Origin: Kordiimonas lipolytica | GTDB taxonomy: Bacteria; Pseudomonadota; Alphaproteobacteria; Sphingomonadales; Kordiimonadaceae | DNA length: 30,809 nucleotides | Assembly: GCF_001550065.1 (NCBI RefSeq) | Contig: NZ_LRUB01000016.1 | Coordinates: forward strand, 1-30,809 | Direction: 5' to 3' | Part shown: one piece after another, positions 5,763 to 23,730 of the stretch | Position numbering within the stretch: position 1 is the stretch's first letter | How the letters are laid out: the number at the start of each line of letters is the position of its first letter | The notes under the pieces: model-generated | Seen by the model: the letters and a program-made list of their open reading frames with translations, nothing else | The model's database searches: none | What the model was told of the DNA's origin: nothing | Translations under genes and position numbers: made by a program

Positions 5763-5825
5763 AGCCGGTAACTCCCCAATAAAGAATATAACACTGAACA
5801 GTAGCCCTTGATTCGAGCCTCATAA

Positions 5826-5841
5826 AAATAGTCGCCAATAA
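5826..5841 (-). promoter_or_regulatory. Shared operator/promoter element, site A (for 4887-5762 hydrolase)
   Basis: On the minus strand this reads TTATTGGCGACTATTT, matching the consensus AAATTGGCTACTATTT at 13 of 16 positions. It lies about 64 bases upstream of the hydrolase start and points towards it. Confidence 0.6.
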
Positions 5842-6028
5842 TGGCTATAAAATCAAGAATATTTTACGTCATTCGGGCCGATTTGAGGGAAAATTAGTGT
5901 CGATGGAAGCAATATATCGCAGATTTCTTTGATTTTTATGTAAATTAACTACATGAAAAATATACATAATTTTTTGCACGGTCGCAATTTTCAGGTGTGG
6001 CACCAATTTGGCGTTGAAAAAGGCTACG

Positions 6029-6044
6029 AAAATGGCTACTATTT
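6029..6044 (+). promoter_or_regulatory. Shared operator/promoter element, site B (for TonB receptor)
   Basis: It reads AAAATGGCTACTATTT, 15 of 16 to the consensus, and lies 73 bases before the chosen receptor start. Its TACTAT could itself act as a -10 hexamer. Confidence 0.65.
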
Positions 6045-6117
6045 TATAAATCAGTTACGAGGAACCGCTTTCATGCGTGCTTGGGAATTTATAAATTGTT
6101 CTTTAGGGAGAAGAGAC

Positions 6118-8256
6118 ATGTTTTGTCTGTCAGGTGAAAAGCTGATGAGGTCTGCATCGGTGATCGCCATTTCAGTTGTGGGGCTGCCCGCTGCCGTTTC
6201 GGCACAGGATGCCGGGGCGTCCGACGGGGCGTTGATGGAGGAGATTGTTATCTCCGGCTCACGTTTGCCGGCATCCATTGAATCCATGCCGGGGTCGGTT
6301 ACTATTATTGGCGAGGAAGAGCTTGGTAAGCAGCTTGCCGTGACGACAGACCTTGAGGCAATTCTGGGGCAGTTGGTGCCGGGTATGGGGACGAGCTCTG
6401 CGTCGCCCGCCAACTTCACCACCAGCCTGCGCGGCCGCAAGCCGGTGGTCTTCATTGACGGCGTGCCAATCACGCCGACACTCAATGATGTTGGCCGCGA
6501 GCTGCGCCTGATTGATCCGGCCGTCATTCAGCGCATTGAAGTGGTGCGTGGTTCGTCCGCTCTCTATGGCAACAGTGCCGGGGCCGGCTTCATCAACTAT
6601 ATCACCGGGCCAGGCAGGAAGGGCGAAAGCACTTTCACAACGGAAGTAGGGACGCAATTTTCCCTGACTGACCTTGGCAACGGGTTCCGTCCTTCCATCC
6701 GCCAGTCCATGAGCGGCGGGGGTGACAGCATCGATTATGTGGCGTCTGGCTACTATGAAAAAGTTGGCGGCTTCTTTGATGCCGACGGCGACCGGATCGC
6801 GCCTATTCCAAATGGCTTCAGCGGCCTCGCGGATTCCGACATCTATAGCCTTTATGGCAAGATTGGTTTCGATTTTGCCGAAGATCAGCGCCTTGAGGCC
6901 AGCATCAACAAATATCGCCAGAAGCAGGACACCGATTACACGTTGCTCGCTGGGGACGTGTCTGAAGGTATCAAGGCGACAGCCATTCCCAAGGATGGCA
7001 CGGAGATCGAGGAAGCTGACCAGTTTCACAGCAACCTTGTCGGCACGCTGACCTATACTCATGACGATATCATGGGCACGGGGTTGACGCTTCAGGGATA
7101 TTATCAGCGGTCGAAAAGCGTGTTCGACTATAACCCGAACCGTTTCCCGCTGACGGACAAGGCGTCAGCCCAGTCTGACACTGAATCCAAAAAATATGGC
7201 TTCCGCCTTGACCTGCGCACGCCGCTTGATTTCCTGTCGGATGGTGCCGAGCTGTTGTGGGGGGCGGACTATCTGCATGATGACACGGTCACCGGTCTTG
7301 TTGATGGTCGTGAGTTTGCACCCACCCAGGTTCTGAAAAGCCGTGCTGTGTTTGGTCAGTTGTTCATGCCGCTCTTTGATAAGCTCACGCTGACTGCGGG
7401 GGTCCGCCATGAAAAAGCTGACCTGACGATTGAGGATTTCACATCGCTGTTCACGTTGGCGGAAATTACCGGCGGCACGCTTGAGTATTCCGCAACGCCG
7501 GTGAATATCGGCCTGACCTATGATGTTTCCGATACGGTGAGCCTGTTTGGTGGCTTCTCGCAGGGCTTCGAGGTGGCGAGCGTTGGTCGTGTACTGCGGT
7601 CATACCCGGTGGATGTGAATGTTGTGATCCTGGATCCGGAACCCAACCTGATCGATAGCTATGAAGGTGGTGTGCGGACGCATTTCGAGAATTTCTCGAC
7701 CGAGCTTGCGGTGTTCTACACCACATCCACGAATGCGCTGACCTTTAGCCCCGACCCGAACAACCCGGCCAACAATGTGATCGAGCAACGGACGGCTGAT
7801 GAAGTGTATGGCATCGAATTTACCTTCAATGCGGATCTTTCCGACACCTGGCGGGTTGGTGGCAGCTATACCTGGCTTGAGGGCAAGGAAGACCGCGATC
7901 TGGACGGCACGTTCGAACGCTATATCCAGCATCGCCGTATCCCGCCACGCAAGATCACAGGTTATGTGGAGCATGATTTTGCCGATACGTGGAGCGTGCG
8001 CGTGCAGGGCCTCTATTCCGGGTCGAGGAAGAAATTCCCGGGCAGCACGGCCTTCTGGGAAGGCGATGTGAATGACTGGTTCCTGCTGGATGTGAGCGTT
8101 TCAGGCGAAGTGGGGCCAGGTACGCTGATTATTGGGGTTAATAATGCGCTGAATACCGACTATTTCACGCATATCTCCGAAACAGCGCAGCGGGATGACC
8201 GCTATTCCAAGGCTCCTGGTGCCACGGCATCGATCCGGTATCGCATCAGTTACTAA
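6118..8256 (+). CDS. TonB-dependent outer-membrane receptor
   Basis: The 712-residue product has an N-terminal signal peptide (basic start, hydrophobic core, cleavage likely after AVSAQ near residue 30). A TonB-box-like stretch (EEIVISGSR, about 41-49) and a plug domain (about 50-166, with LRGRKPVVFIDGVP and IEVVRGSSALYGNSAGAG) follow. The rest is a 22-strand-type barrel ending in an aromatic residue (RYRISY). It imports a scarce ligand, typically a ferric chelate, across the outer membrane using TonB energy. The start at 6118 is chosen because AGGGAGAAGAG precedes it and it begins the signal peptide; the open frame from 5953 runs through regulatory DNA. It is followed by a PepSY membrane protein and an ABC transporter, as expected for a complete uptake route. 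No N-terminal signalling extension is evident. Confidence 0.93.
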   Translation: MFCLSGEKLMRSASVIAISVVGLPAAVSAQDAGASDGALMEEIVISGSRLPASIESMPGSVTIIGEEELGKQLAVTTDLEAILGQLVPGMGTSSASPANFTTSLRGRKPVVFIDGVPITPTLNDVGRELRLIDPAVIQRIEVVRGSSALYGNSAGAGFINYITGPGRKGESTFTTEVGTQFSLTDLGNGFRPSIRQSMSGGGDSIDYVASGYYEKVGGFFDADGDRIAPIPNGFSGLADSDIYSLYGKIGFDFAEDQRLEASINKYRQKQDTDYTLLAGDVSEGIKATAIPKDGTEIEEADQFHSNLVGTLTYTHDDIMGTGLTLQGYYQRSKSVFDYNPNRFPLTDKASAQSDTESKKYGFRLDLRTPLDFLSDGAELLWGADYLHDDTVTGLVDGREFAPTQVLKSRAVFGQLFMPLFDKLTLTAGVRHEKADLTIEDFTSLFTLAEITGGTLEYSATPVNIGLTYDVSDTVSLFGGFSQGFEVASVGRVLRSYPVDVNVVILDPEPNLIDSYEGGVRTHFENFSTELAVFYTTSTNALTFSPDPNNPANNVIEQRTADEVYGIEFTFNADLSDTWRVGGSYTWLEGKEDRDLDGTFERYIQHRRIPPRKITGYVEHDFADTWSVRVQGLYSGSRKKFPGSTAFWEGDVNDWFLLDVSVSGEVGPGTLIIGVNNALNTDYFTHISETAQRDDRYSKAPGATASIRYRISY

Positions 8257-8275
8257 GGCGGTTCCTCTACCCCCA

Positions 8276-8331
8276 CCCTCGACATGAGGGCCCCTCCCCG
8301 TGCCCACCTCGATTATAATTGGGGTGGGCAC
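8276..8331 (+). terminator. Tandem hairpins between receptor and PepSY gene
   Basis: CCCTC/GAGGG (8276-8290) is followed by a perfect 9-bp stem GTGCCCACC/GGTGGGCAC (8300-8308 and 8323-8331) and CCCCTTTCTT. The weak T-run suggests a partial terminator or an mRNA-stabilising element that lowers expression of the downstream gene, rather than a strict stop. The C-rich 5' part could also pair alternatively with the last G-rich arm. Confidence 0.5.
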
Positions 8332-8359
8332 CCCTTTCTTGAGTGGAGAGTGCAGGCAA

Positions 8360-9376
8360 ATGCGTCGGACGATTTATAAGTTTCACAAGTGGCTGGGCCT
8401 GGCCTTTGGCATGTTGCTGATGGCACAGGCGGGGTCTGGCGTGCTGTTGAGCTTCCGCCCGCAACTGCAGGCGTGGGAGCTTTCACGGCACCCTGCGGCC
8501 AGTGCGGAAATGGGTGTGAATGACGCGGTCGCCGCTGTGCTTGATGCCTTTCCAGGGGCAAGGCCTGAGCGGGTTTATGTCGCGGCTGAACTGGGCGACC
8601 CTTTGGCTGTCCGGTTGGCGGACAGCAGCGATCCCCGTTTTGTGGCCGTGTGGAGAAAGCATGACGTCCTGGCCGTGGCCGGGTTGCCGCTCCATGGGGC
8701 GCTGCAGTGGCTGTTTGAATGGCACGAGGGCCTTTGGTGGAGTGGTGCAGGGCGCTGGGTGCTGGTCTTTCAGGCTTTCCTGCTTATGGGTTTTGTTGTC
8801 TCGGGGCTCTATTTCTGGTGGCCGCTCCGCCATAAGCAGGGCCTGAAGGTCAAGTGGCGGTCACCACCCGTGCGCCGCTGGTACGATGTGCATAGGATCA
8901 TTGGTATTTGTTCGGCGCCGTTTCTTGTGTTGGCGGTGCTGACCGGTGGGACAATGGCGGTCCGTGCCATGGCGGGCGGCAGCGCGCCTGTGTTGCCGGT
9001 GGGGCCGCGCGGGCCCGTCCAGGTTGATGAGGCATTCGAATGCGCTGCGTGTGGTCCGTTAAAGGAAATCCGCATGACGCCGGCTGGCGGCTACCGGCTG
9101 ATCTACGCTTCAAAGAAGGCGCCCTGGCCGTTGGCTGCCGACAGTATCGCTGTGTCAGCGAAAGGGCGGGCCAGTCCGAGGATGGCGCAGGACGCGACTG
9201 CTGCCCAGAAGCTGCTTGGCTGGATGTATCCGCTGCATACCGGGAAGGCAATGGGGGTGTTCGGGCAACTGGTCACGCTGGTGGTGGGGCTGGCGCTGTC
9301 CGTGTTGCCTGTCGTTGGCGGGCTTCTCTGGCTGCGGCGGCGCCCCAGGAAGAAATCTGTTGCGTGTGGCGCATAA
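8360..9376 (+). CDS. PepSY-associated membrane protein (putative ferric/heme-type reductase)
   Basis: The 338-residue membrane protein has about four transmembrane segments (roughly residues 12-32, 133-153, 178-200 and 300-325). It shows the conserved histidines of PepSY_TM proteins: H9 (FHKWLG), H112 (LPLHG), H122 (WHEGLWW), H178 (DVHRIIG) and H293 (YPLHTG). These proteins commonly accompany TonB receptors and are thought to bind heme and reduce ferric chelates. A periplasmic CAAC pair (C228, C231) is an extra possible redox or metal site. The start at 8360 is chosen because the PepSY motif begins there and GGAGAG lies upstream; an in-frame extension to 8300 would run through the hairpin. 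Its stop codon overlaps the shared regulatory element of the next operon. Confidence 0.85.
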   Translation: MRRTIYKFHKWLGLAFGMLLMAQAGSGVLLSFRPQLQAWELSRHPAASAEMGVNDAVAAVLDAFPGARPERVYVAAELGDPLAVRLADSSDPRFVAVWRKHDVLAVAGLPLHGALQWLFEWHEGLWWSGAGRWVLVFQAFLLMGFVVSGLYFWWPLRHKQGLKVKWRSPPVRRWYDVHRIIGICSAPFLVLAVLTGGTMAVRAMAGGSAPVLPVGPRGPVQVDEAFECAACGPLKEIRMTPAGGYRLIYASKKAPWPLAADSIAVSAKGRASPRMAQDATAAQKLLGWMYPLHTGKAMGVFGQLVTLVVGLALSVLPVVGGLLWLRRRPRKKSVACGA

Positions 9377-9390
9377 ATTGGCTACTATTT
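9375..9390 (+). promoter_or_regulatory. Shared operator/promoter element, site C (for ABC transporter operon)
   Basis: AAATTGGCTACTATTT, an exact copy of the consensus and of site D. It ends 29 bases before the GTG start of the binding protein and overlaps the stop codon of the preceding PepSY gene. If TACTAT (9383-9388) is the -10, the leader would be about 25 bases. Confidence 0.7.
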
Positions 9391-9419
9391 TGATATTGAG
9401 TCATTCTTAGGAGGAAATT

Positions 9420-10529
9420 GTGGAGCTTGGGAGTTTGAGAACGGCGTTTATAGCGTCTGTGTTGGTGTGTGGGCTTTCCCTGGCAGGGGCCGGCGCGGCA
9501 GATGTGCCCGACTATTACCCGGCAGACTATGAGGCGATGGTGGAGGCTTCCAGGTCCGAGGGCAGTCTTCTGATCTATTCGAATATCGCAGAATATAATT
9601 GGCGGGATATCTTTGTGGGCTTCTCGAAAAAATATCCCTGGATCAAGATCGAGAGCATTGACCTGGGGCCATCCACAAGCTTCGAGCGCTACTATTCGGA
9701 AAGCTCTGTAGGCAAGCGGACGGCAGACCTGATCGTGACCGGTGCGCCTGACGGCTGGTACCGGTTCGCTGCGAAAGGCGGGTTGGCGCAGTACTCGTCA
9801 CCTGAAGTCGAAAAGATGCCGGAGTGGAGCCGGCCGCTGCCAGGGCTTTACACGATCTCTGCAGATCCGATGGTGATCATTCATAACAAGCTGCTTTTGA
9901 AGGATGCGCCCGACAGCCTGGCCGATATCCGGGAGTTGACGGAAGAAGGTGGTCGGTATCGCGATAAGGTGACAACTTATAACGCCACCAGCCATTCCTT
10001 CGCCTATGATATTCACTGGTCAGTGACGAAGGCGTTTGGGGATGCGGCCTGGCCGCTTTTCGACGACCTGGGCAGCCTCACGCGGTCCGAAAGTGGTGGT
10101 GCCGTGATGGTGGAGAAGGTGACGAGCGGTGAATATGTAGCGGGCTATTTTGTCTCCGGTATCACAGTGTTCCAGCGGATGAACCAGGCGGGCCGCGACA
10201 AGATTATGGGATGGAGCCTGATCGAGGACGGTACCCCTGTTTTCCATCGCGGCATGGGGGTGACAACGGGGGCGGAAAGCCCGAATTCGGCGCGCCTGAT
10301 GCTGGATTATATCCTTTCGCATGATGGCCAGGTGGCCGTTGGCAAAGGCGGGCTGACGCCGTATCGCCCGGACGTCGGGAAGGATGAAGTGCCATATCTT
10401 TCTTATGGAGGGATCGTCGATGAGATCGGCGAGGAGAATATCATCCATGTGGAATATGACCCCGAAGCCTATGAGCAGCGTGATGTATTTCTCGCCCGTT
10501 GGAAGCAGGCTTTCCGCATCAAAAACTGA
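9420..10529 (+). CDS. ABC transporter periplasmic binding protein, ferric/spermidine-type
   Basis: The 369-residue product carries a typical signal peptide (MELGSLRTAFIASVLV, cleavage probably after GAGAA near residue 27). The mature part resembles the type 2 binding proteins of the FbpA/AfuA and related organic-anion families (EGSLLIYSNIAEYNWRDIF, then RTADLIVTGAPDGWY, with a late RLMLDYILS). The GTG start at 9420 has a perfect AGGAGG six bases upstream. It is the first gene of a ten-gene-scale co-directional run and carries the shared 16-bp element in front. It would capture the substrate after TonB-dependent entry. Members of this family bind ferric ions, ferric chelates, phosphonates or carboxylates, so the ligand cannot be read from sequence alone. 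Confidence 0.9.
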   Translation: MELGSLRTAFIASVLVCGLSLAGAGAADVPDYYPADYEAMVEASRSEGSLLIYSNIAEYNWRDIFVGFSKKYPWIKIESIDLGPSTSFERYYSESSVGKRTADLIVTGAPDGWYRFAAKGGLAQYSSPEVEKMPEWSRPLPGLYTISADPMVIIHNKLLLKDAPDSLADIRELTEEGGRYRDKVTTYNATSHSFAYDIHWSVTKAFGDAAWPLFDDLGSLTRSESGGAVMVEKVTSGEYVAGYFVSGITVFQRMNQAGRDKIMGWSLIEDGTPVFHRGMGVTTGAESPNSARLMLDYILSHDGQVAVGKGGLTPYRPDVGKDEVPYLSYGGIVDEIGEENIIHVEYDPEAYEQRDVFLARWKQAFRIKN

Positions 10530-10539
10530 GGTTCAACCA

Positions 10540-10576
10540 CGTTGGCCGATGCAAACCTGAAAGCATCGGCCCAACG
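10540..10576 (+). terminator. Intercistronic hairpin between binding protein and permease genes
   Basis: CGTTGGCCGATGC (10540-10552) pairs with GCATCGGCCCAACG (10563-10576) with one bulged C and a 10-base loop. There is no T-run. Such stems between a binding-protein gene and its permease gene usually protect the upstream mRNA or reduce downstream expression. The right arm ends directly before the permease ribosome binding site. Confidence 0.6.
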
Positions 10577-10587
10577 GAGAGTATGTT

Positions 10588-12309
10588 ATGCAAAATGCAG
10601 CAGTATCTGAAGAACAGCCGTTCGGTGTGGTTTTTTCCAGGGCGAAACTGATCCAGTATTCTGTCGCGGTTATTGCGCTGATACTGGTGGCGGTACCCCT
10701 TGTGCCCATCATGTATCAGGCGATGCTCGACAAACCCATCTATGACGGGCAGGCGATCCTGACGCTGGATAATTTCAGCCGCTTGTTCGCCAACCCCAAA
10801 TTCTATGAAGCTTTCAAGAACTCGGTGGTCCTGTCGGCGGTGACAACCGTCATCGCGGGTATTATCGGCGTGTCCACCGCTGTGTTCATCGGTCGTACCA
10901 ACATACCGGGCAAAAAGTTTTTCGGTGAAGTGGTCTTGTGGCCCATGTATGTGTCTCATCTGGTTTTGGCCTTTGGCTGGTTCATGATGTATGGGCCTTC
11001 GGGCTATGTGACGCTGCTGGTCGAGGGCTGGATCGGTGGCAAGCCGTGGGATCTGTATACAATGGCCGGCATGGCCATCGTGGCGGGTGCAGCGCAAGCG
11101 CCGTTGGTGCATCTTTTCTGTGCGTCCTCGGTGGCGCGGGCCGATGCGTCGCTTGAAGACGCTGCCAGAACTGTTGGCGCCGGGCCCTTTACGGTGTTGC
11201 GCCGGGTCACGGTGCCTTTGTTGCGTCCCGCCATTACCTATAGCGCCATGCTGAATTTCATCGGGTGCCTTGAAATGCTGTCCGTGCCGCTCATTCTGGG
11301 GACGCCGGTAGGCAAGGACTTCTTCACCACCTTTCTCTATACGCAGGGATACAGTGGTTCCAATCCAGACTATGGCCTGATCGGCGCGGCCGCCTGTTTC
11401 CTCTTGGTAATGATCAGTATCCTGATCTATCTGCAGTCCAAACTTTTGAAAAAGGCCGGCCGGTTTGTCACGGTGAAAGGCAAGGCCACGCGCCCGAAGA
11501 TATTCGACCTTGGGCGCTACCGCTGGGCGGTCTCCGCCGTGCTGGCGGTCTATTTCGGGCTGACGCTTTTCGTGACCGTTGGCGGGCTTGGGCTCAGGGC
11601 CTTCACCACTTTCCTGACACCGCTTCTGGCGCCATGGGAGTTGCTGACCCTCGATAATTTCGCGCTGATTTTCGAATATGACGCCTATCAGCGGTCAATC
11701 ACCAACAGCCTGTTGGTGGCCGGGATTGGCGCTGCGTTTGCCGTGGGCTTTGTCAGCCTGATCACGGTGATCATTCATCGATCGGGTTTCCGGTTCCGGA
11801 AGGTGCTCGAGTATGTCGCCCTTTATCCGCGGGCTGTGCCAGGCATTGTCGCGGGCATCGGCTTCTTCTGGGGCATGCTGCTGTTCCCTTTCCTCGGGCC
11901 GCTTCACGGCACCATCTGGATCCTGATCCTGGCCTTCACCATGCGCACGATCCCCACGGCTTTCGGGGCCATTTCACCGGCGCTGATGCAGCTGTCGAAG
12001 GATCTGGACCAAAGCTCGCGTACCGTGGGGGCAGATTGGTGGAGCACCCAGCGCAAGATCATTCTGCCGCTTCTCCGCCCGGCGCTTTTCGGGGCTTATG
12101 TCCTCCTGTTCCTGTCCTTCCTGAAGGAATATGCGTCTGCAGCCTTCCTGTTTGCGCCCGGCAGCGAAATCCTGGGCACCACGATGCTGCAATTCTGGGT
12201 CAATGGCGACAGTGGCCCGGTAGCCGCGCTGGCGGTCATCCAAATCATTTTAACAATCACTTTTGTGGTCTTTGCCCGCAAACTGTTGGGAGTGAAAGCT
12301 TATGGGTAA
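10588..12309 (+). CDS. ABC transporter permease, fused two-domain FbpB-type
   Basis: The 573-residue integral membrane protein consists of two BPD_transp_1 permease units in tandem. Each has an EAA-type coupling loop: EDAARTVGAGPFTVLRRVTVPLLRP near residue 188 and QSSRTVGADWWSTQRKIILPLLRP near residue 472 (quoted in parts of one loop each). The duplicated architecture is typical of ferric-ion and 2-aminoethylphosphonate-like transporters. GGAGAG precedes the ATG. The stop overlaps the ATPase start by 8 bases, indicating translational coupling. It forms the inner-membrane channel for the substrate delivered by the 9420-10529 protein. Confidence 0.92.
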   Translation: MQNAAVSEEQPFGVVFSRAKLIQYSVAVIALILVAVPLVPIMYQAMLDKPIYDGQAILTLDNFSRLFANPKFYEAFKNSVVLSAVTTVIAGIIGVSTAVFIGRTNIPGKKFFGEVVLWPMYVSHLVLAFGWFMMYGPSGYVTLLVEGWIGGKPWDLYTMAGMAIVAGAAQAPLVHLFCASSVARADASLEDAARTVGAGPFTVLRRVTVPLLRPAITYSAMLNFIGCLEMLSVPLILGTPVGKDFFTTFLYTQGYSGSNPDYGLIGAAACFLLVMISILIYLQSKLLKKAGRFVTVKGKATRPKIFDLGRYRWAVSAVLAVYFGLTLFVTVGGLGLRAFTTFLTPLLAPWELLTLDNFALIFEYDAYQRSITNSLLVAGIGAAFAVGFVSLITVIIHRSGFRFRKVLEYVALYPRAVPGIVAGIGFFWGMLLFPFLGPLHGTIWILILAFTMRTIPTAFGAISPALMQLSKDLDQSSRTVGADWWSTQRKIILPLLRPALFGAYVLLFLSFLKEYASAAFLFAPGSEILGTTMLQFWVNGDSGPVAALAVIQIILTITFVVFARKLLGVKAYG

Positions 12310-13378
12310 GCTGATTATTGATAACCTGTGCAAGCATTTCGGCGCCGTGAAAGCCGTTGACAATGTCAGCATCACGGTTGAAGACGGGGAATTCCTGACG
12401 CTTCTGGGGCCATCCGGATGCGGCAAGTCAACCACCCTGTTTGCTGTCGCGGGCCTTGACCGGCCCACAAGCGGGCGCATTCTGGTGGATGATGTAGTGT
12501 TTTACGACGGCAAACAGCAGGCCATGATGCCGCCTGAGAAACGCAATTGCGGCCTGGTGTTCCAGTCTTACGCTTTGTGGCCGCATATGACGGTCCGCGA
12601 CAATCTGGCCTTTCCGCTGGAAATTCGGAAAATCGGTAAATCCGAACAGCAGAAGCGCATCACTGACGCGTTGGCGCTCGTGGAGATGGAAACCTATCAG
12701 GACCGGTATCCGCACGAACTGTCTGGTGGCCAGCAGCAGCGCGTGGCATTGGCCCGCACACTGGTTTATGAACCGCGCTTGATGCTGCTGGATGAACCGC
12801 TTTCAAACCTGGATGCCAAGTTGCGGATTCGGGCCCGCCGCTGGCTCAAGGAACTGCAGGGGCGCCTTGGCCTGACAACCATCTATGTCACCCACGACCA
12901 GATCGAGGCCCTGACGCTGAGCGACCGCATTGCGGTGATGGAGGGGGGCAAGCTGGTGCAATTGGGTACGCCCGAGGAAATCTACAGCAGGCCGGTTTCG
13001 CCCTTCGTGGCCGACTTTATCGGCGCCAGCAACTTCATTGACGGGTTCGCAGGCGACGGCGCGGATGGGGCCGTCAGCATTTCACTTGCAGAAGGAGTGT
13101 CTATTCGGGCCAAGGCCCGCCCTGGAGTCATGAAAGGCAAGGCGGTGCGTGTAGCAGTGCGACCTGAAAATATTCGTCTTGTGAATGGCAGTGGTGTGCC
13201 AGATGGCAGCAATGCGCTTACCGCATCAATTCGTGACCGCGATTACCTGGGCGCGCGGTTCCAGTATATTCTGGATGTCTGCGGTACCGAACTGCGCATG
13301 GAGGCGGAGCAAAATCTTGAGGGAAGCCAAGTGGATATCAGTTTCACCCCTGAAGATTGCATTGCTTTCCCCGCTTAG
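12302..13378 (+). CDS. ABC transporter ATP-binding protein, FbpC/PotA-type
   Basis: The 358-residue ATPase shows Walker A GPSGCGKST (residues 36-44), a Q-loop (LVFQSYALWPH, near 84), the signature LSGGQQQR (near 139), Walker B LMLLDEP followed by LSNLDAKLR, and the switch histidine in VTHDQIEA. A C-terminal TOBE-like domain (from about residue 240) is typical of the carbohydrate, iron and polyamine uptake subfamily. It energises the 10588-12309 permease, whose gene it overlaps by 8 bases. Nothing is unusual in the catalytic motifs. Confidence 0.94.
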   Translation: MGKLIIDNLCKHFGAVKAVDNVSITVEDGEFLTLLGPSGCGKSTTLFAVAGLDRPTSGRILVDDVVFYDGKQQAMMPPEKRNCGLVFQSYALWPHMTVRDNLAFPLEIRKIGKSEQQKRITDALALVEMETYQDRYPHELSGGQQQRVALARTLVYEPRLMLLDEPLSNLDAKLRIRARRWLKELQGRLGLTTIYVTHDQIEALTLSDRIAVMEGGKLVQLGTPEEIYSRPVSPFVADFIGASNFIDGFAGDGADGAVSISLAEGVSIRAKARPGVMKGKAVRVAVRPENIRLVNGSGVPDGSNALTASIRDRDYLGARFQYILDVCGTELRMEAEQNLEGSQVDISFTPEDCIAFPA

Positions 13379-13393
13379 GAATAGGAGGTCGCG

Positions 13394-15759: not shown

Positions 15760-16493
15760 AGCTGGGGGTGTGGCTCGCGACCGCCAACACGGCGGTGATC
15801 GAAATGGCCAAGGACCTGCGGGCTGATTTTGCAGTGTTCGATCTGGAGCATGGTATTTTTGACCCGACGGCTCTTGACGCCCTGGTTGGGTTCGCGGCTG
15901 CCCTGGGCGTGCTGCCGGTTGTAAAAGCCGGGGCGCCCGAGGGCCGTTTTGTGATGGAAGCGCTCGACCGGGGCGCGGCGGCCGTGCTGATCCCCCAGGT
16001 GCGGGACTATGGACACGCCCGCGATGTGACGGCCTATGCGAAATATCCGCCGCTGGGGTGCCGGGGGGCGTCTGGTGGACGAGTGTTCGGGTACAGGCCC
16101 GCGTCCGCGTCCTTCTATCGGGTCGAGGACACGCGCAAGCCCTGTTATGTCATGATCGAAACCGCGGGTGCCCTGGAGGATGTGGAGGCCATCGCGGCCC
16201 TGCCCACGGTGGACGGCCTGTTTGTTGGCCCGACAGATCTCGCCCTGTCACGGGGCCGGCCGGCATACGAACAATCACCAGCGGATTTTGCAGACATTGT
16301 CCGCATTGCGGCGGCTGCCAGGGCGGCTGGCAAACCTTGGATTTTTCCTGCCTGGTCGGAAGCTGAACAACGCTTTGCCTGTGACCACGGCGCCAGCATG
16401 ATGGTGGTAACCAACGAGCACGGCGCGCTGAAGGCGGGCCTGCAGGCCGGGCTGGATAGTGCCCGCCAGCGTCTGGAGGCGGTGGGGGCATGA
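15756..16493 (+). CDS. HpcH/HpaI-family aldolase
   Basis: The 245-residue protein has the HpcH/HpaI/citrate-lyase-beta TIM-barrel signatures. H32 is in FDLEHG, a metal-binding acidic residue is in [10 protein letters not shown] (about 135), and another is in [11 protein letters not shown] (about 161). These class II aldolases cleave 4-hydroxy-2-oxo acids or related compounds to pyruvate-like products. The usual arginine in the V-R-V/P strand is replaced by lysine ([10 protein letters not shown]57), which may mark a different substrate carboxylate. ATGA overlaps occur at both ends. Confidence 0.87.
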
Positions 16494-17995
16494 CACCAGC
16501 GCTTCACACGGTCCGCACCTGGGCCGCGCATGAACAGCACCCGAGGCACGACGAACTTGCCTGGAAGCTGGCGGGTGTGGCCTTCGCCCCGCAGCCGGAT
16601 GACGCTGTGGCAGATATGGTGATCAACCGCCTGATCGATAATGCCGGGGTGGCCGTTGCCGCCCTGAACCGCACGCCAGTGGCCGCCGCGCGGGCCCAGG
16701 CTCTCGCGTTCCCGCGCGCTGGTGGTGCGACACTTTTCGGTGTATCGCCCATGGTGCGGGTTGATGCGTCCTGGGCAGCCTGGGCCAATTCCGTTGCGGT
16801 GCGGGAGCTGGATTTCCACGATACCTATCTGGCGGCGGACTATTCCCATCCGGCCGACAATATCCCGACGCTTCTGGCTGTGGCGCAGCAGTGCGGTGCG
16901 TCGGGACGAAGCTTGTTACGCGCCATTGCGGTGGCCTATGAGGTTCAGATCGCCCTGACCCGCGGCATCTGCCTGCATGCCCACAAAATCGATCATGTCG
17001 CCCATCTGGGCGCGTCGGTTGCTGTGGGGATCGGCGCCCTTCTGGGGCTTGGCCGGGAGGTGATCTATCAGGCAGTGCAGCATGCGGTGCATGTGTCCTG
17101 TAGCACCCGGCAGTCCCGCAAGGGACAGATTTCCAGCTGGAAGGCCTATGCACCAGCCCATGCCGCCAAGCTGGCCGTTGAAGCCGTGGACCGCGCCATG
17201 CGAGGGCAAACATCGCCGTCGCCCATTTATGAGGGCGAGGACAGCATCATCGCCCGGCTGCTTGGCGGGGCAGGGCATGAGTATACGGTACAATTGCCGA
17301 AAGAAGGCGCGCCCGCCCGCTCCATTCTTGAAAGTTACACGAAGGCGTATTCGGCGGAATATCAAAGCCAGGCGCTGATCGATCTGGCCCTGCGGATGCG
17401 CGCTCGGATCGTCGATCTGGAAGAGGTTGCATCGATTGCCATCCATACCAGCCACCATACCCATCATGTGATCGGCACGGGAGCCGGGGACCCGCAGAAG
17501 ATGGACCCGCTGGCCAGCCGCGAAACGCTGGACCATTCCATCATGTATATCTTTGCCGTCGCGCTTGAGGACGGATGCTGGCATCACGAGAGATCCTATT
17601 TGCCCGCCCGGGCGGCGAGGCCCGAGACCGGGCGCCTGTGGCAAAAGATCTCAACCGTTGAGGATGCAGGCTGGACCGCGCGTTACCATGCGGCAGACCC
17701 GCGTGAGCGCGCCTTTGGTGGGCGTGTGGAAATCCTGATGAAAAACGGCAGCCTGATCGAGGACGAACTGGCAGTCGCCGACGCGCATCCTGCTGGTGCC
17801 GCGCCATATGGCCGACCGGAATATATCGGTAAATTCAGGAGCCTTACAGGCGGGATACTGACTGTCGGTGCTCAGGACCTGTTTCTGGCATCTGCGGCAA
17901 GATTGAATGACCTGACGGCAGGGGAGCTGGATGCGCTGGTGCCAGAGCTGTCGTCCCATGATCTGCTCCAGATCACCAACGAGGCGATATTCTGA
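16490..17995 (+). CDS. MmgE/PrpD-family protein (2-methylcitrate dehydratase-like)
   Basis: The 501-residue protein has the PrpD fold signatures: a helical N-terminal domain with [12 protein letters not shown] and [14 protein letters not shown], a lid motif [14 protein letters not shown] (about 218), and the C-terminal small domain (RDP-like region with FGGRVEI). PrpD dehydrates 2-methylcitrate to cis-aconitate-type products. The same fold also includes cis-aconitate decarboxylase and iminodisuccinate epimerase, so the reaction is open. The gene overlaps both neighbours (ATGA and TGATG). The pairing with a PrpB-like lyase suggests that a methylcitrate-like tricarboxylate is handled. No PrpC-like citrate synthase is present nearby. 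Confidence 0.9.
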
Positions 17996-18888
17996 TGCAA
18001 CAGGCATTCGTCAGTGTGGCGGCAAAGCGCCAGACCTTTCGTGCAGGACTGGCATCAGGCAAGATGCTGCGGTTTCCGGGTGCGATTTCGCCCCTGTGTG
18101 CAAAGCTTATTGAACGGAAAGGATTTGATGGCTGCTATGTGTCGGGGGCTGTACTTTCCGCCCAGCAGGCGCTGCCGGATATCGGCCTCACCACCGCGAC
18201 AGAGGTGATCGGCGCCAGCGGTGCCATATCGGCCGCAACAGCATTACCCACACTTGTGGATGCGGATACTGGCTTTGGCGAACCCGTCAATGTGGCGCGC
18301 ACGGTGGCGGCGCTTGAGGCGGCCGGGCTCGCGGGCTGCCATCTTGAAGACCAGCGCCTGCCCAAGCGGTGCGGGCACCTTGACAACAAGGAACTGGTGC
18401 CCGTGGAGGATATGTGCCGCAAAATCCGCGCCGCGCGCGAGATACGCGCCGATGATAGTTTTCTGTTGATGGCACGCACTGACGCCCGCGCCCTTGAAGG
18501 GCTTGATGCCGCTACCGAGCGGGCGAGGGCCTATGTGGATGCGGGTGCCGACGCGGTCTTTCCGGAGGCGCTGGCGAATGAGGCAGAGTTTGAGGCATTT
18601 CGGGCGGCAATCGATGTACCGCTTCTGGCAAACATGACCGAGTTTGGAAAGTCGCCCTTGCTGTCGCTCGATCAATTGCGCAATCTGGGGTACAATATGA
18701 TGATCTATCCGGTCACCCTGTTGCGTCTCGCCATGGCGGCCATGGAGCGGGGCCTTGATGTTCTTGCGCGGGACGGTAGCCAGGAAGGCGTTATCCCGGA
18801 TATGCAGACGCGTGAGCAGTTGTATGACCTGCTCGACTATGACGGCTACGGCCGTTTTGATGCCAGTATCACCAATTTCCAGCTGTAG
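17995..18888 (+). CDS. Isocitrate lyase/PEP mutase family lyase, PrpB-like
   Basis: The 297-residue product has the metal-binding motif VDADTGFGE (D89, D91) and the catalytic loop KRCGHL with C126. This loop separates true lyases (methylisocitrate lyase, isocitrate lyase) from phosphonomutases. The length and the sequence LEDQRLPKRCGH fit methylisocitrate lyase, which gives pyruvate plus succinate. 2,3-dimethylmalate lyase or another hydroxy-diacid lyase is possible. Its start overlaps the PrpD-like stop by one base. It is the last gene of the long operon that begins with the ABC transporter. Confidence 0.9.
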   Translation: MQQAFVSVAAKRQTFRAGLASGKMLRFPGAISPLCAKLIERKGFDGCYVSGAVLSAQQALPDIGLTTATEVIGASGAISAATALPTLVDADTGFGEPVNVARTVAALEAAGLAGCHLEDQRLPKRCGHLDNKELVPVEDMCRKIRAAREIRADDSFLLMARTDARALEGLDAATERARAYVDAGADAVFPEALANEAEFEAFRAAIDVPLLANMTEFGKSPLLSLDQLRNLGYNMMIYPVTLLRLAMAAMERGLDVLARDGSQEGVIPDMQTREQLYDLLDYDGYGRFDASITNFQL

Positions 18889-18950
18889 CGATTACCTTGG
18901 TGTTTCCCAGTGTTCAGTTAGCTGTTGCGGGCCTCATTTAATTGGCGTAT

Positions 18951-18966
18951 AAATTGGCTACTATTT
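18951..18966 (+). promoter_or_regulatory. Shared operator/promoter element, site D (for GS-like operon)
   Basis: AAATTGGCTACTATTT, identical to site C over all 16 bases and embedded in the same longer context (ATAAATTGGCTACTATTTT). It ends 28 bases before the GS-like ATG, the same distance as site C from its gene. Confidence 0.7.
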
Positions 18967-18994
18967 TAAAGCTTTGAATTACGGAGTGTGCAGA

Positions 18995-20344
18995 ATGTTA
19001 AGCTTGGCAGAGGTCAGGGACCTGATATCCGAGAACAGGGACCGTCATGTGAAGATTGGGCTGTTCGATATCGATGGTATCCTTCGGGGCAAATATCTGT
19101 CGGCTGACAAATTCCTCTCGGCACTCGACGGTGGGTTCGGTTTTTGTGACGTGGTGATGGGCTGGGACATGAACGACCAGCTGTATGACAATGTATCTTT
19201 CACCGGATGGCATACCGGTTACCCAGACGCACAGGCCCGCATTGTGCCCGAAAGCTACCGGACGCTTGAGGCAGAAGGCGGGACGCCCTTCTTTCTGGCG
19301 GAGTTTACCGGCAAGGCGGCCGAAATCTGCCCACGAAATCTGCTGCAACGCGTGCTGAAGCGTGCCGAAAACATGGGTTATACCGTCAAGGCGGGCATCG
19401 AATATGAGTTTTTCGTATTCGATGAATCGCCGGAAAGCGCGCGGGAAAAGGGGTTTCGCAATCTGAAACCCATTTCGCCCGGGGCCTTTGGCTATTCGGC
19501 GCTGCGCTCGTGCGAGCATGCAGCCTTCTATCAGGCGCTTCTGAAAGGCGCGGCGGATATGGGCATTCGGATTGAGGGGCTGCACGAGGAAACCGGCGCC
19601 GGCGTCCTGGAAGCCGCGCTCACTGTGAATGACGGCCTGGCGGCCGCAGACAATGCGGCGCTTTTCAAGTTGATGGCCAAGGTAGTGGCCCGTGCTCACG
19701 GCAAGATGGCCACTTTCATGGCGAAAAGCTGCCAGCAGTGGCCCGGCCAGAGCGGCCATATGCATTTGTCTTTATGGAAGGGTGACCAGTCGGCGTTCTT
19801 TGACGAGAAGGCTGAGTACCGGATGAGCCCGGTCATGCGCCAGTTCGTTGCCGGCCAGCGCGATATGATGCCGGAAATACTGGCGATGATTGCCCCCACC
19901 ATCAATGCCTACAGGCGGATGATCCCCGGCTTCTGGGCACCCACCACATCTACCTGGGGAGTGGAAAACCGCACCTGCGCCCTGCGGGTGATCCCGGGCA
20001 GCAAGAAAAGCCAGCGGGTCGAATACCGGATTTCTGCGGCGGACGCCAACCCGTATCTGGCACTTGCGGCGGCCATCGCTTCCGGCTTGTGGGGGATAGA
20101 GAATGGTCGCGACGCCGGCGAACCGAAGACAGGCAATGCCTATGACATCTCAGTGGGCGACGAGCACAAGTTGCCGCTGACGCTGTGGGACGCGGCCCAG
20201 CGCTTGCGGGCAAGCGAGGCGGCGCGCGACTGGTTCGGTGATGCCTTTGTCGACCATTTTGCCGCCACGCGGGAGTGGGAGGAGCGTGAATTCCGCAAGC
20301 ATGTCACCGATTGGGAACTCAATCGATATTTCGAAATTATCTAG
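18995..20344 (+). CDS. Glutamine synthetase-like gamma-glutamylamide ligase
   Basis: The 449-residue protein has the catalytic landmarks of the GS fold: GIEYEFFVFD, LHEETGAGVLEAAL, the G-x-G-x-H-x-H-like SGHMHLSLW, and NRTCALRVI, then VEYRISAADANPYLALAA. The N-terminus (VKIGLFDIDGILRGKYLS) is that of the PuuA/IpuC/FluG-like branch, which joins glutamate to amines rather than making glutamine for assimilation. The ATG at 18995 has GGAG upstream; TTG at 18974 is less likely. It opens a three-gene unit with an aldehyde and an alcohol dehydrogenase. A plausible job is activation of a released primary amine, such as ethanolamine or a diamine, as its gamma-glutamyl derivative. Confidence 0.88.
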   Translation: MLSLAEVRDLISENRDRHVKIGLFDIDGILRGKYLSADKFLSALDGGFGFCDVVMGWDMNDQLYDNVSFTGWHTGYPDAQARIVPESYRTLEAEGGTPFFLAEFTGKAAEICPRNLLQRVLKRAENMGYTVKAGIEYEFFVFDESPESAREKGFRNLKPISPGAFGYSALRSCEHAAFYQALLKGAADMGIRIEGLHEETGAGVLEAALTVNDGLAAADNAALFKLMAKVVARAHGKMATFMAKSCQQWPGQSGHMHLSLWKGDQSAFFDEKAEYRMSPVMRQFVAGQRDMMPEILAMIAPTINAYRRMIPGFWAPTTSTWGVENRTCALRVIPGSKKSQRVEYRISAADANPYLALAAAIASGLWGIENGRDAGEPKTGNAYDISVGDEHKLPLTLWDAAQRLRASEAARDWFGDAFVDHFAATREWEEREFRKHVTDWELNRYFEII

Positions 20345-20359
20345 GTGTGGGTCAGTAGT

Positions 20360-21742
20360 ATGTCAGTAAAAACCGTTTCCCCCATTGATGGCCAGATCGT
20401 TGTCGAGCGGCCCTATGTTGAGAACGATCAGGCATTTGCCTGTATTGATAAAGCCGGTGCCGTGCAAGCCGTGTGGGCGGATGTGCCGGTGAAAGACCGG
20501 GTGACGCTGCTTGGCAGGGCTGTGGACCATATGGTGGCCCACACCGATGACCTGGCGCGCGAGATCACATTGCAGATGGGGCGACCCATCAGCCAGACAC
20601 CGGGTGAGATTGCCGGCATGGCCACCCGTGCGCGCTATATGCTCTCCATTGCAGAGGAGGCGCTGGCCGACCTGCCGCGCCAGGCCCCTGAAGGGCAGCA
20701 TCATTTCATCCGCCGGGCACCCCTTGGGGTGGTGCTGGTTATCAGTCCCTGGAACTATCCGTATCTGACGGCTGTGAATGTCATCATCCCGGCGCTCGCC
20801 GCAGGGAACGCGGTGGTGCTGAAGCCGTCAGCGCAGACCCCATTGATTGGCGAGCGGTTCGCGGAGGCTTTCGAGGCGGCAGGCCTGCCTGCGGGCCTGT
20901 TCCAGTGCCTGCATCTGAGCCGTGAGACAACAACTGCCGTTGTTCGAGAGACCAACATCCATCATGTCGCCTTCACCGGCTCTGTCGCGGGCGGCAAGGA
21001 AATGGAAACAGCGGCGGCTGGCCGGTTCCTCAGCATGGGGCTGGAGTTGGGCGGCAAGGACGCGGCCTATGTGCGCGCAGACGCAGACATCCAGGCTGCG
21101 GCCGAAGGGCTGGTGGATGGTGCCATGTTCAATTCGGGTCAGTCATGCTGCGGCATTGAACGCATTTATGTGGCGGCGCATCGGTATCAGGAATTTGTCG
21201 AGGCCTGCGCGGCTATTGTGAAGGGCTATCGTCTGGGCAACCCGATGGACCTGGCGACCACGTTGGGGCCGGTGGTGAATGTGGCCGCGGCCAGTCACAT
21301 CAGGAGCGAAATTGCGAAAGCCATCGCCGCAGGTGCGACGCCGCTGGTGGATGAGGCAGCCTTTGGCATGGCCAAGGCCGGAACACCTTATGTGGCACCC
21401 CAGATTCTGGTGGATGTGGACCATTCCATGTCCATCATGACAGAGGAAACCTTCGGGCCGGTCGTGGGCATCATGCCGGTGGAAAGCGATGAGGTGGCGA
21501 TCGGCCTGATGAATGACAGCCCTTATGGCCTGACGGCCAGCATCTGGTCCCGTGATGAAGCGGCCTCCCTGAAGATTGCGGACAAGCTTGAGGTGGGTAC
21601 CGTGTTCATGAACCGGTGTGACGCGCTTGAACCTGCCCTGGCGTGGGTGGGTGTCAAGGATACCGGCAAGGGCTGCACCCTGTCGCGCTATGGCTATGAT
21701 GCCATGACGCGGCCAAAATCTTTCAACTTCAAATATTCTTAG
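20360..21742 (+). CDS. NAD(P)-dependent aldehyde dehydrogenase
   Basis: The 460-residue ALDH has the cofactor-binding SPWNYPYLTAVN and VVLKPSAQTP, the glycine-rich FTGSVAGGKE, the general base glutamate in ELGGKDAAY, the nucleophilic cysteine in FNSGQSCCGIER, and the late EETFGPVVGI. It oxidises an aldehyde to the acid. The start is ATG at 20360; GTG at 20345, directly after the GS-like stop, is the alternative. Between a GS-like ligase and an Fe-type alcohol dehydrogenase, it probably oxidises the aldehyde arising from an amino alcohol or amine moiety, as PuuC does in gamma-glutamylated putrescine breakdown. Confidence 0.92.
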   Translation: MSVKTVSPIDGQIVVERPYVENDQAFACIDKAGAVQAVWADVPVKDRVTLLGRAVDHMVAHTDDLAREITLQMGRPISQTPGEIAGMATRARYMLSIAEEALADLPRQAPEGQHHFIRRAPLGVVLVISPWNYPYLTAVNVIIPALAAGNAVVLKPSAQTPLIGERFAEAFEAAGLPAGLFQCLHLSRETTTAVVRETNIHHVAFTGSVAGGKEMETAAAGRFLSMGLELGGKDAAYVRADADIQAAAEGLVDGAMFNSGQSCCGIERIYVAAHRYQEFVEACAAIVKGYRLGNPMDLATTLGPVVNVAAASHIRSEIAKAIAAGATPLVDEAAFGMAKAGTPYVAPQILVDVDHSMSIMTEETFGPVVGIMPVESDEVAIGLMNDSPYGLTASIWSRDEAASLKIADKLEVGTVFMNRCDALEPALAWVGVKDTGKGCTLSRYGYDAMTRPKSFNFKYS

Positions 21743-21753
21743 GGCCTATTGCC

Positions 21754-22938
21754 ATGACATCGGAACAGGTAAATTTCTCAGCAAACTGGAACTATCCCAC
21801 GGCGGTGCGCGTCGGCGCGGGCCGCGTGCGGGAACTGGCGGCATTGTGCGCGCAGTTCGGCATAGCCAAGCCGTTGGTGGTGACGGACAGAGGCACCGCG
21901 AGCCTTCCGTTCACCGTGGCGATCATGAGGCAACTTGGTGATGCGGGGGTGCAAGCTGCGCTTTTTGATGCTGTCGACAGCAACCCCACGGTCACGAATG
22001 TGGAAGAAGGGGCGGTGGCGTTTCGGAGCGGCGGGCATGACGGTGTAGTGGCGCTTGGGGGCGGAAGTGGCCTTGATGCAGGGAAAGCGATCGCCCTTTA
22101 TGCCGGGCAGGATCGCCCGCTGCGGGATTTTGAAGACGCGGGCGACAATTGGATGCGGGTGAACGAAGCCGGGGTGGCGCCTGTGATCGCCGTGCCGACA
22201 ACGGCCGGTACAGGGTCCGAAGTGGGGCGGGCTTCCGTCATTACCTTCCCGGACACCCATGAGAAGAAGATCATCTTTCACCCGACAATGCTGCCAGTGG
22301 CGGTGTTGTCAGACCCTGAGTTGACGGTTGGCCTGCCGGCAGGTCTCACGGCTGCGACGGGACTTGATGCCTTCACCCACTGTTTCGAGGCCTATTGCGC
22401 CCCCGGCTATCATCCGATGGCAGATGGGATCGCGCTTGAAGGGATGCGGCTGATCAAGGCGTGGCTGCCGGTGGCCTATTCGGAACCCGGTCATATCGAG
22501 GCCCGCACCCATATGCTGGTGGCTGCCAGCATGGGGGCAACCGCTTTCCAGAAGGGGCTTGGTGCGGTTCATGCGCTCAGCCATCCCGTGGGGGCCTTCT
22601 ATGGCGCGCATCATGGGCTAGCGAACGCGGTATTCCTGCCCTATGTGATGCTGAGGAACCGGCCTGCCATCGCGGAGAAAATGGCGCGGCTGGGGGCCTT
22701 TCTGGGTTTGGAGAATCCCGGGTTCGATAGTGTGTATGAATGGGTGATGGACTTCCGGGCGCTGTTTGATATCCCGAACTCAGCCGAAGTGCTTGGTGTT
22801 CGGGAAGAAGATATTCCCGCGCTTGCGGCAGCCGCAGAGGCAGATCCGTCGATGGGGGGAAACCCATGCCCGATCAGCCGGGAAGGATTGGCGGACCTGT
22901 TCCAGAGGGCGTTGGCGGGGAAGCTTTCCCCCGCCTGA
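21754..22938 (+). CDS. Iron-containing alcohol dehydrogenase
   Basis: The 394-residue protein has the group III dehydrogenase motifs: GGGSGLDAGK for NAD(P) binding, then metal ligands D and H in TGLDAFTHCFEAY and H residues in GAVHALSHPVGAFYGAHHGLAN. It interconverts an alcohol and an aldehyde, so it may feed the adjacent aldehyde dehydrogenase. It starts 11 bases after the ALDH stop. Its own stop codon lies in the left arm of a short hairpin shared with the convergent GntR gene. Confidence 0.92.
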   Translation: MTSEQVNFSANWNYPTAVRVGAGRVRELAALCAQFGIAKPLVVTDRGTASLPFTVAIMRQLGDAGVQAALFDAVDSNPTVTNVEEGAVAFRSGGHDGVVALGGGSGLDAGKAIALYAGQDRPLRDFEDAGDNWMRVNEAGVAPVIAVPTTAGTGSEVGRASVITFPDTHEKKIIFHPTMLPVAVLSDPELTVGLPAGLTAATGLDAFTHCFEAYCAPGYHPMADGIALEGMRLIKAWLPVAYSEPGHIEARTHMLVAASMGATAFQKGLGAVHALSHPVGAFYGAHHGLANAVFLPYVMLRNRPAIAEKMARLGAFLGLENPGFDSVYEWVMDFRALFDIPNSAEVLGVREEDIPALAAAAEADPSMGGNPCPISREGLADLFQRALAGKLSPA

Positions 22939-22955
22939 GAGTGCTCAGGACTTTT
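22934..22955. terminator. Short bidirectional hairpin between convergent genes
   Basis: CCTGAG-AGTG-CTCAGG (22934-22949) is followed by ACTTTT on the plus strand. The dehydrogenase stop (22936-22938) and the GntR stop (22947-22945) sit in opposite arms. The stem has only 6 bp, so the strength is uncertain. Confidence 0.45.
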
Positions 22956-23604
22956 CGTCCGTTACCGGCTTCGAGAATTCCCGCCAGCGATTGAGGTGCC
23001 GATAGATGGTATAGTTCAATCCATCGCCGTCCCGGCTGCGCAGCATTTCGACCATCTGACGGTGATCCTCGTTACTGGCTCGCATGCCAGCAACCGTTTC
23101 CCAGCCGCCTTCCCGACCGGGAAGGCCGCGATCCCGCAGTTCCCGGATTTGAGTGATCAACAGGTCGTTGCCACCTATTGAGTAGAACCTGTTATGGAAG
23201 GCCATGTTGAGGTCGGTCAGTTCTGCCCGGCTGGCGGTATCGATCGCGGCTTCAAAGTCTTCCACCATCTGGCTCAGCTCGGCCACGTCGTCGTCGGAGC
23301 ATTTCTGCACCGCGAGGCGCCCGGCAGCGGTTTCCAGAATGGTCCGCACTTCATAGAGTTCGGCCCGCTCACGGTCTGACGGGTTGATCACCCTGTACCC
23401 GCGGTTCGGGACATGGTCGATCAGGTGTTTGGCGGCCAGCGCGGACAACGCCATCCTTACCTCGAATCGGTTCGCTTTATACCGATTTTCGATGTCAGCC
23501 TGCTTAAGCCACTCCCCCGGACGGAAATATTCTCCCAGAATATCCGCCTGCAATTGCTGTGCGACGCCAATTTCTGCCGCTTCCGCTGTGTTTTTCCTTG
23601 CCAT
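22945..23604 (-). CDS. GntR-family transcriptional regulator, FCD (FadR-type) subfamily
   Basis: The 219-residue protein has an N-terminal winged helix (about residues 12-75, LKQADIENRYKANRFEVRMALSAL-type recognition helices). A C-terminal all-helical FCD domain has the metal/ligand-type motif DLNMAFHNRFY and later EDHRQMVEMLRSRD. FCD regulators usually sense carboxylates and repress catabolic operons. The start is ATG at 23604; the frame extends to TTG at 23622, which lies within the shared element. The element ends only a few bases upstream of the ATG, so the gene is probably autoregulated and its mRNA nearly leaderless. It is the obvious candidate to bind the five shared elements. Confidence 0.9.
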   Translation of the reverse strand: MARKNTAEAAEIGVAQQLQADILGEYFRPGEWLKQADIENRYKANRFEVRMALSALAAKHLIDHVPNRGYRVINPSDRERAELYEVRTILETAAGRLAVQKCSDDDVAELSQMVEDFEAAIDTASRAELTDLNMAFHNRFYSIGGNDLLITQIRELRDRGLPGREGGWETVAGMRASNEDHRQMVEMLRSRDGDGLNYTIYRHLNRWREFSKPVTDEKS

Positions 23605-23609
23605 ATGAT

Positions 23610-23625
23610 AAATAGTAGCCAATAT
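23610..23625 (-). promoter_or_regulatory. Shared operator/promoter element, site E (for the GntR gene)
   Basis: On the minus strand this reads ATATTGGCTACTATTT, 15 of 16 to the consensus. It ends 5 bases before the GntR ATG, so a bound protein would cover the transcription and translation start. Confidence 0.68.
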
Positions 23626-23645
23626 TGTTAACAGATTTAATCGCC

Positions 23646-23651
23646 TATAAT
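23646..23651 (+). promoter_or_regulatory. Possible -10 box for the 23731 gene
   Basis: TATAAT matches the sigma-70 -10 consensus, with TTGTTA 15 bases upstream (23625-23630) as a weak -35. It would leave a leader of about 75 bases. This part overlaps the edge of site E, so the GntR protein could affect both directions. Confidence 0.35.
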
Positions 23652-23730
23652 TTATAGCAGCAATCGGCGGCCAATGCCAGTGTCGTGTTCGGGCGATTTG
23701 GGTTCAGATATGTAAACAGTGGAGGTGACG

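Follow-up and report, generated by a model that had tools for sequence, protein, structure and literature searches.

A described system that invites comparison with the locus considered here is Atu1419 of Agrobacterium fabrum, a VanR-group FCD-GntR regulator that, according to the accessible text of its description, represses hydroxycinnamate genes from operator palindromes overlapping -10 boxes (PMC7797058). Extra, weaker half-sites that flank the main GntR operators, 7 to 12 nt from the site centre, are described in the available part of a further paper (Suvorova 2015, PMC4494728). The present analysis concerns a 30,809-nt stretch of the Kordiimonas lipolytica genome (contig NZ_LRUB01000016.1, hereafter the window), in which a 16-bp element stands in five places around the gene for a GntR/FCD regulator of 219 residues (22945..23604, minus strand). 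Comparison of sequences indicates, with a probability that we put at about 82%, that the element is the operator of this VanR-type protein, in a local, autoregulated repressor regulon through which an amide or amine compound would be imported and degraded. The cluster-encoded regulator very probably occupies the element to switch off its own gene and the cluster.

The regulator belongs to the GntR superfamily and its FCD (FadR) subfamily, scoring above the Pfam cut-offs for PF00392 (32.0 bits, cut-off 27) and PF07729 (94.5, cut-off 24.3), and alignment and a predicted model give it a VanR-group fold. The model (predicted local distance difference test score 89) has six long helices in residues 77-204 plus one four-residue helix, and the one Asn/Asp and three His ligands of the VanR group's six-helix FCD domain are represented by N133, H137, H181 and H203, putative metal-binding residues that are invariant across 31 GntR sequences. 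Scores for the PhnR (phosphonate) and NanR equivalogs are below the curated NCBIfam cut-offs (phnR_burk 93 of 271.5 bits, NanR 58.6 of 260), and the nearest relative, from Kordiimonas lacus, is 91% identical. PmiR of Pseudomonas aeruginosa (7xp0) is reportedly a 2-methylisocitrate sensor. Atu1419 shares 20% identity with the protein here and, as far as the accessible text goes, has other target genes and is a tetramer (PMC7797058).

A sequence-only reading of the window had placed the element at five positions, and its coordinates and strands are borne out: the 16-mer is exact at 9375 and 18951 on the plus strand, has one mismatch at 6029 (plus) and at 23610 (minus), and three at 5826 (minus). 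Direct reading of the letters also upholds the description of the element as an imperfect palindrome, AAATnGnnnnCnATTT. When 0 to 3 mismatches to the 16-mer consensus were allowed, five sites were found against 0.13 expected (standard deviation 0.37), and none of 100 dinucleotide shuffles of the window held five. An independent score matrix, built from 28 sites at non-Kordiimonas loci, ranks the same five highest (21.8 to 29.8; next window score 10.5; maximum in 60 first-order Markov random sequences 19.9), so that the finding is not an artefact of a consensus read from those five. Each of the five faces a gene on its own strand, as had been claimed, namely those for the TonB-dependent receptor, the ATP-binding cassette (ABC) transporter operon, the operon headed by a glutamine synthetase-like (GS-like) gene, the GntR protein, and a serine hydrolase at 4887-5762 on the minus strand (orf4887). 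The same holds for all four cluster sites of a relative's genome, G471, which is presumed to be Kordiimonas pumila. The accompanying statement that all sites are intergenic or at gene junctions is right overall, except that the site at 6029 falls within a mechanically called open reading frame (ORF; 5953-8256) and that at 9375 overlaps the final two bases of the PepSY ORF (end 9376). If the 6029 site is a promoter, the receptor gene must start downstream of it, at ATG 6073 or 6118, 28 or 73 bp past the site. Two further details need amendment: the site said to sit on the start of the GntR gene stops 5 bases short of the ATG at 23604 and does not overlap it, and the link to a hydrolase holds for orf4887, which has its own site, and not for the alpha/beta hydrolase at 23719 (plus), which merely shares a divergent region with the GntR gene.

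Specificity was gauged in the genomes of relatives, as a proxy for the source genome, and the many copies at unrelated promoters that would speak against the proposal were looked for there and not found. The 4.0-Mb genome G471 carries the entire window cluster, with sites before the genes for GntR, the TonB receptor, the substrate-binding protein and orf4887; it has five places with up to two mismatches, three of them within the cluster, and with up to three mismatches allowed the pattern does not outnumber its reversed control (46 vs 82). Across 16 genomes that encode the GntR, a search for the 14-mer allowing one mismatch gave 36 places in 15 genomes (control 6): the cluster accounts for 29, another 2 are 5 to 7 kb away from the fetched locus, and 5 are elsewhere; two of these last are a place without a nearby cluster gene (G001:C39) and one with only an ABC-ATPase-like match 5 kb off (G013:C32). 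Only 2 of 296 genomes of one order encode this GntR (E 1e-50 or better), and both have an exact 14-mer less than 15 kb from it; the exact 14-mer also occurs in 2 of the 294 order genomes without this GntR, and the reversed control likewise in 4 genomes. The regulator itself is rare: at E 1e-40 it was found in 4 of the 385 genomes of the class, two of which were carriers already known, and at 1e-50 in 1 of the 29 genomes of the family.

The element is associated with one group of regulators. A 31-sequence GntR alignment, used in one scan of the GTDB contig set, yielded 55 loci, each fetched with up to 10 kb on either side. The close set (L001-L017), with GntR proteins 47 to 64% identical, comprises 16 loci once L004, the second contig of a metagenome-assembled genome (MAG) that repeats the L003 region, is dropped; the hosts are alpha-, beta- and gammaproteobacteria and one Verrucomicrobiota MAG. 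With up to two mismatches, the element is present in 15 of these 16 loci vs 0 of 38 loci with a distant GntR (L018-L055), and in L011, the one exception, the TonB gene is preceded by two sites that lie beyond the fetched stretch. One clade of 19 rows in the GntR tree (98/93) holds every asymmetric element, 17 of its rows having this type alone, L002 both operator types and L011 neither in its locus, and the palindrome TTGGCGCCAA accompanies 36 of the 38 remaining rows, counts that are not independent because many distant-clade rows are Bosea. Together with the few copies elsewhere in the genomes, this comparison supports the earlier suggestion of a GntR regulon, as a candidate assignment. A regulator encoded elsewhere could own the element, with the GntR gene just one of its targets, and the presence of a site before the GntR gene would suit that arrangement, binding by GntR being itself a prediction; this is improbable, since the type of element switches with the GntR clade, TTGGCGCCAA adjoining the distant GntRs, since few copies lie outside the cluster, as expected for a local regulator, and since the operator geometry fits the VanR group. 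Two observations on the carriers may be recorded here. The cluster and element of L015 are in an Opitutaceae MAG labelled Verrucomicrobiota, through horizontal transfer or a binning error, and L003 and L004, two contigs of one MAG, have an identical operator sequence in the same GntR-hydrolase stretch.

The geometry in question is that of a VanR-type 10-bp operator with G3 and C8, as in Atu1419, and it is found here as TTGGCTACTA in four of the five window sites. Window variants begin TTGGCGACTA or ATGGC, and alignment columns 5 and 10 are conserved in 100% and 98% of 48 sites. The full palindrome of a VanR-type operator is not present, the right half GCCAATTT of the sister type being replaced here by TACTATTT. 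In the accessible description the Atu1419 operator, ATGTATACAT, is perfectly palindromic (PMC7797058), whereas TTGGCTACTA is asymmetric and has phased extra half-sites. The distant loci have the perfect palindrome TTGGCGCCAA, in 41 copies at 36 of 38 loci (all but L044 and L054). These sister regulators, from Bosea, Paracoccaceae, Marinobacterium and others, have 33-41% GntR identity and the same left half, AAATTGGC, but a symmetric operator, and their fetched loci hold no match to the GS-like gene; an orf4887 homologue is found in 34 of the 38 distant loci, L044 and L054 included, and in 31 is divergent, about 1 kb before the GntR gene. Three base changes in the right half convert GCCAAT to TACTAT. 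The palindrome is the likelier ancestral state, judged from its occurrence on both sides of the root of the drawing, which is a midpoint root only. The unusual feature seems to be the operator itself, in which half of a palindrome is rewritten as a -10 box and so gains direction, with weaker half-sites at 12-bp steps. We tentatively propose, at somewhat less than even odds, that in one clade the right half of TTGGCGCCAA became a -10 hexamer, and that the resulting directional module of operator plus promoter spread by copying to all units of the regulon and passed from one phylum to another, the 12-bp half-sites aiding cooperative loading of dimers. A literature search for the regulon, which included the 13-mer TTGGCTACTATTT and TTGGCGCCAA with GntR, found no paper, most subscription journals being outside its coverage; the regulon is new, the sort is already known, and the operator is a variant.

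That TACTAT within the element may be a -10 box had also been suggested, and it probably is, the spacing to upstream hexamers agreeing with this. In 10 of 38 non-redundant sites (the 48 minus those of L009, L010, L012 and G190), exactly 17 bp separate a hexamer starting with TTG from the TACTAT that follows it; matches to TTGACA at four of six positions occur 7 times at this spacing and 6 times at 18 bp. Three window promoters have a -35 hexamer at 17 bp. The promoter/operator of the TonB receptor gene (6008..6044, plus) has TTGAAA at 6014-6019 and TACTAT at 6037-6042 within the 16-mer at 6029-6044; that of the ABC operon (9360..9390, plus) has TTGCGT at 9360-9365 and TACTAT at 9383-9388 within the exact 16-mer at 9375-9390; and at the orf4887 promoter the most divergent operator, TTATTGGCGACTATTT (5826..5841, minus), contains GACTAT (5828-5833) at a 17-bp spacing from TTGATT (5851-5856), a layout that recurs in G471. 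The GS-like operon has TACTAT at 18959-18964 within an exact 16-mer at 18951-18966 (promoter/operator 18942..18966, plus). At the putative autoregulatory operator of the GntR gene (23610..23625, minus) TACTAT occupies 23612-23617 and ends 7 bases before the ATG, and 5 to 8 bases separate the two in G471, L002, L008 and L014, a spacing that would suit a leaderless mRNA; distances of 1 base in L001 and L005, 11 in L015 and 21 in L016, measured to the first start codon, do not fit one. The signature of TACTAT with TTG at 17 bp is what would be expected if the element were merely a strong sigma-70 promoter type, common by chance or duplication and not bound by GntR. This is slightly less probable than a foreign regulator: neither the invariant GGC nor the A-T flanks belong to a sigma-70 promoter, the element follows a single GntR clade and is rarely found elsewhere, and in the sister clade AAATTGGC persists in a palindrome whose right half has no TTG at 17 bp before it (0 of 20 when GCCAAT is taken as the -10 box). 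A search of -10 positions in the sister clade gave no single peak.

Repeats of the left half are phased with the main operator. TTGGC, at four of five bases, occurs 12 bp upstream of 8 of the 38 sites, 12 bp downstream of 7 and 24 bp upstream of 6, against a mean of 0.78 (standard deviation 1.2) for 104 lags, -12 and -24 among them; members of a tandem, for example the L013 pair, detect each other and so enter the counts on both sides. Of 21 sister sites, 7 have it at the 12-bp upstream position, against a mean of 0.49 for 45 upstream lags that include -12. At the TonB promoter three half-sites, TTGGC at 6008, AAGGC at 6020 and ATGGC at 6032, stand in register at exact 12-bp steps; the ABC promoter has GTGGC at 9366-9370, 12 bp upstream of its main half-site, and the GS-like promoter has TTGGC at 18942-18946 and again one 12-bp step on, at 18954. 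Compared with the flanking half-sites in the available part of PMC4494728, these lie slightly farther out: the left half is repeated directly at steps of 12 and 24 bp, and the closest copy is some 12 to 16 nt from the site centre. The least probable alternative, that GntR binds the sites and mainly activates, or loads along the promoter, could draw on the upstream repeats, and is countered by the overlap of the strongest part of the operator with the -10 box, at which a bound protein would block access by polymerase, and by Atu1419, a repressor whose palindromes overlap -10 boxes in the accessible text (PMC7797058).

Several observations weigh against an operator-promoter regulon of the form proposed. 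The GS-like and GntR promoters lack a good -35 hexamer, and a general sigma-70 scan of 5600-23900 found 10 promoters vs 7.8 expected, among which, of the five, only that of the TonB gene was in the sense direction. TTG also peaks at 11 bp (4 of 38 sites) and at 23 bp (5 of 38), and as the phased TTGGC repeats yield these peaks the spacing background is not flat. The GS-like gene of G471 has no such site upstream, just a lone TTGGC. The hydrolase/porin unit at 23719 in the window has no site on its own strand, and among the 48 sites 32 have the start of a cluster gene on their own strand within 320 bp, 13 on the other strand only (9 of them with a nitrilase or 23719-type hydrolase gene) and 3 neither, a tally in which one L010 tandem pair was set as other strand and three of the 13, the L010 659 site and the L013 pair, lie at locus ends and are not judgeable; at Niveispirillum-type loci (L007, L012, G190) the site is directed away from the nitrilase gene. 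Direction is therefore a tendency outside Kordiimonas and not a rule. Finally, the Nitratireductor locus L054 holds a large part of the cluster together with a GntR of 44% identity, yet lacks the element, and TTGGC or GCCAA in an A+T-rich context was looked for between 3.5 and 13.5 kb of that locus and not seen. At 4965-4986 of L054, before orf4887, TTGCGC occurs twice, 12 bp apart, and may represent the operator of another GntR clade that shares this phasing.

The mechanism that we infer for the repressor regulon, in binding, repression, inducer and substrate alike, is as follows. A GntR dimer would read the 10-mer TTGGCTACTA, making its two symmetric contacts at G3 and C8. Besides this, the operator's right half would provide the -10 hexamer, so that bound repressor would cover the -10 box of all five units (gntR, TonB, ABC, GS-like and hydrolase), and a small pathway metabolite at the FCD metal site would release it. 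A second dimer on the weaker TTGGC half-sites, 12 and 24 bp upstream, would probably make binding stronger. The regulon so controlled would take up an amide-bonded compound (TonB, ABC) and then hydrolyse it with three hydrolases (orf4887, nitrilase and the proline-iminopeptidase type); in Kordiimonas an amine branch (GS-like ligase and the two dehydrogenases) would gamma-glutamylate and oxidise an amine or amino-alcohol product, beside organic-acid genes for HpcH, PrpD and phosphoenolpyruvate (PEP) mutase/isocitrate lyase (ICL).

The genes themselves can be described in order. The orf4887 product (4887..5762, minus) is a serine hydrolase of alpha/beta fold with a GFSGG motif and no Pfam match, weakly like poly(aspartic acid) hydrolase-1 and LpqC; its family has 1550 homologues at E 0.001 and occurs near this GntR in both operator clades. 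On the plus strand follow the TonB-dependent receptor (6073..8256, with a putative start at 6073 or 6118), a PepSY_TM protein (8300..9376) and the ABC importer (9420..13378), made up of a substrate-binding protein (9420-10529), a double permease (10588-12309) and an ATPase (12302-13378), which is near iron or 2-aminoethylphosphonate binders and under the curated cut-offs. Genes for a nitrilase-type amidohydrolase, an MlrC-family metallopeptidase, an HpcH aldolase, an MmgE/PrpD protein and a PEP mutase/ICL-family lyase (13394..18888, plus) apparently form one operon with the ABC genes, their order being identical in G471. The GS-like gamma-glutamyl ligase, from a putative start at 18998, an aldehyde dehydrogenase and an iron alcohol dehydrogenase occupy 18998..22938 (plus). 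Scores for gamma-glutamylputrescine synthetase (GGputSyn, 197.7 of 650 bits) and GlnA (232.8 of 429.15) are under the curated cut-offs, so that the assignment stays that of a GS-like ligase with the amine not specified. A proline-iminopeptidase-family alpha/beta hydrolase (23719..24648, plus), divergent from the GntR gene, is a conserved member of the cluster.

In the 16 close loci, where gene order varies and counts are minima because of the 10-kb limit, the alpha/beta hydrolase is present in 14, the nitrilase in 13, the substrate-binding protein in 12, orf4887 and the ABC permease in 11 each, the TonB receptor in 8 and the GS-like gene in 5. The simplest guess for the substrate is an amide-bonded compound too large for porins. 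Ethanolamine- or alaninol-type gamma-glutamylation, considered as a clue to the ligand from the ligase and dehydrogenase set, was set aside, since a gene matched in just 5 of 16 close loci cannot define the ligand of the regulon, and microcystin, suggested by the MlrC family, was likewise dropped with a match in 1 of 16, besides the window and G471. Desferrioxamine is a further candidate, considered because Niveispirillum irakense, the carrier of L011, is reported to degrade it; the compound had no direct support.

Elsewhere in the window, an ALIL pseudoknot (RF01497, 113 bits; 871-987, minus), an element typical of IS3-type transposase frameshifting, was the sole match of an Rfam scan at gathering cut-offs, which gave nothing for a riboswitch reading; the minus-strand ORFs 40-945 and 942-1268 may be an insertion sequence. 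Beside it, 1319-2659 (minus) encodes an AAA ATPase with an OLD-like TOPRIM domain, possibly a defence-type nuclease, and 26640-28829 (minus) a 729-residue protein with ten matches to RTX calcium-binding repeats.

For a GntR/FCD clade as yet uncharacterised, the regulon as proposed would supply a DNA-recognition code that can be tested, and would define the regulon in many species at once. The symmetric and asymmetric operators may serve as a natural pair for studying how a dimeric repressor acts on an operator that also serves as part of the core promoter. The element also marks a conserved uptake-and-hydrolysis cluster, whose operator would offer a built-in reporter promoter for finding the inducer.

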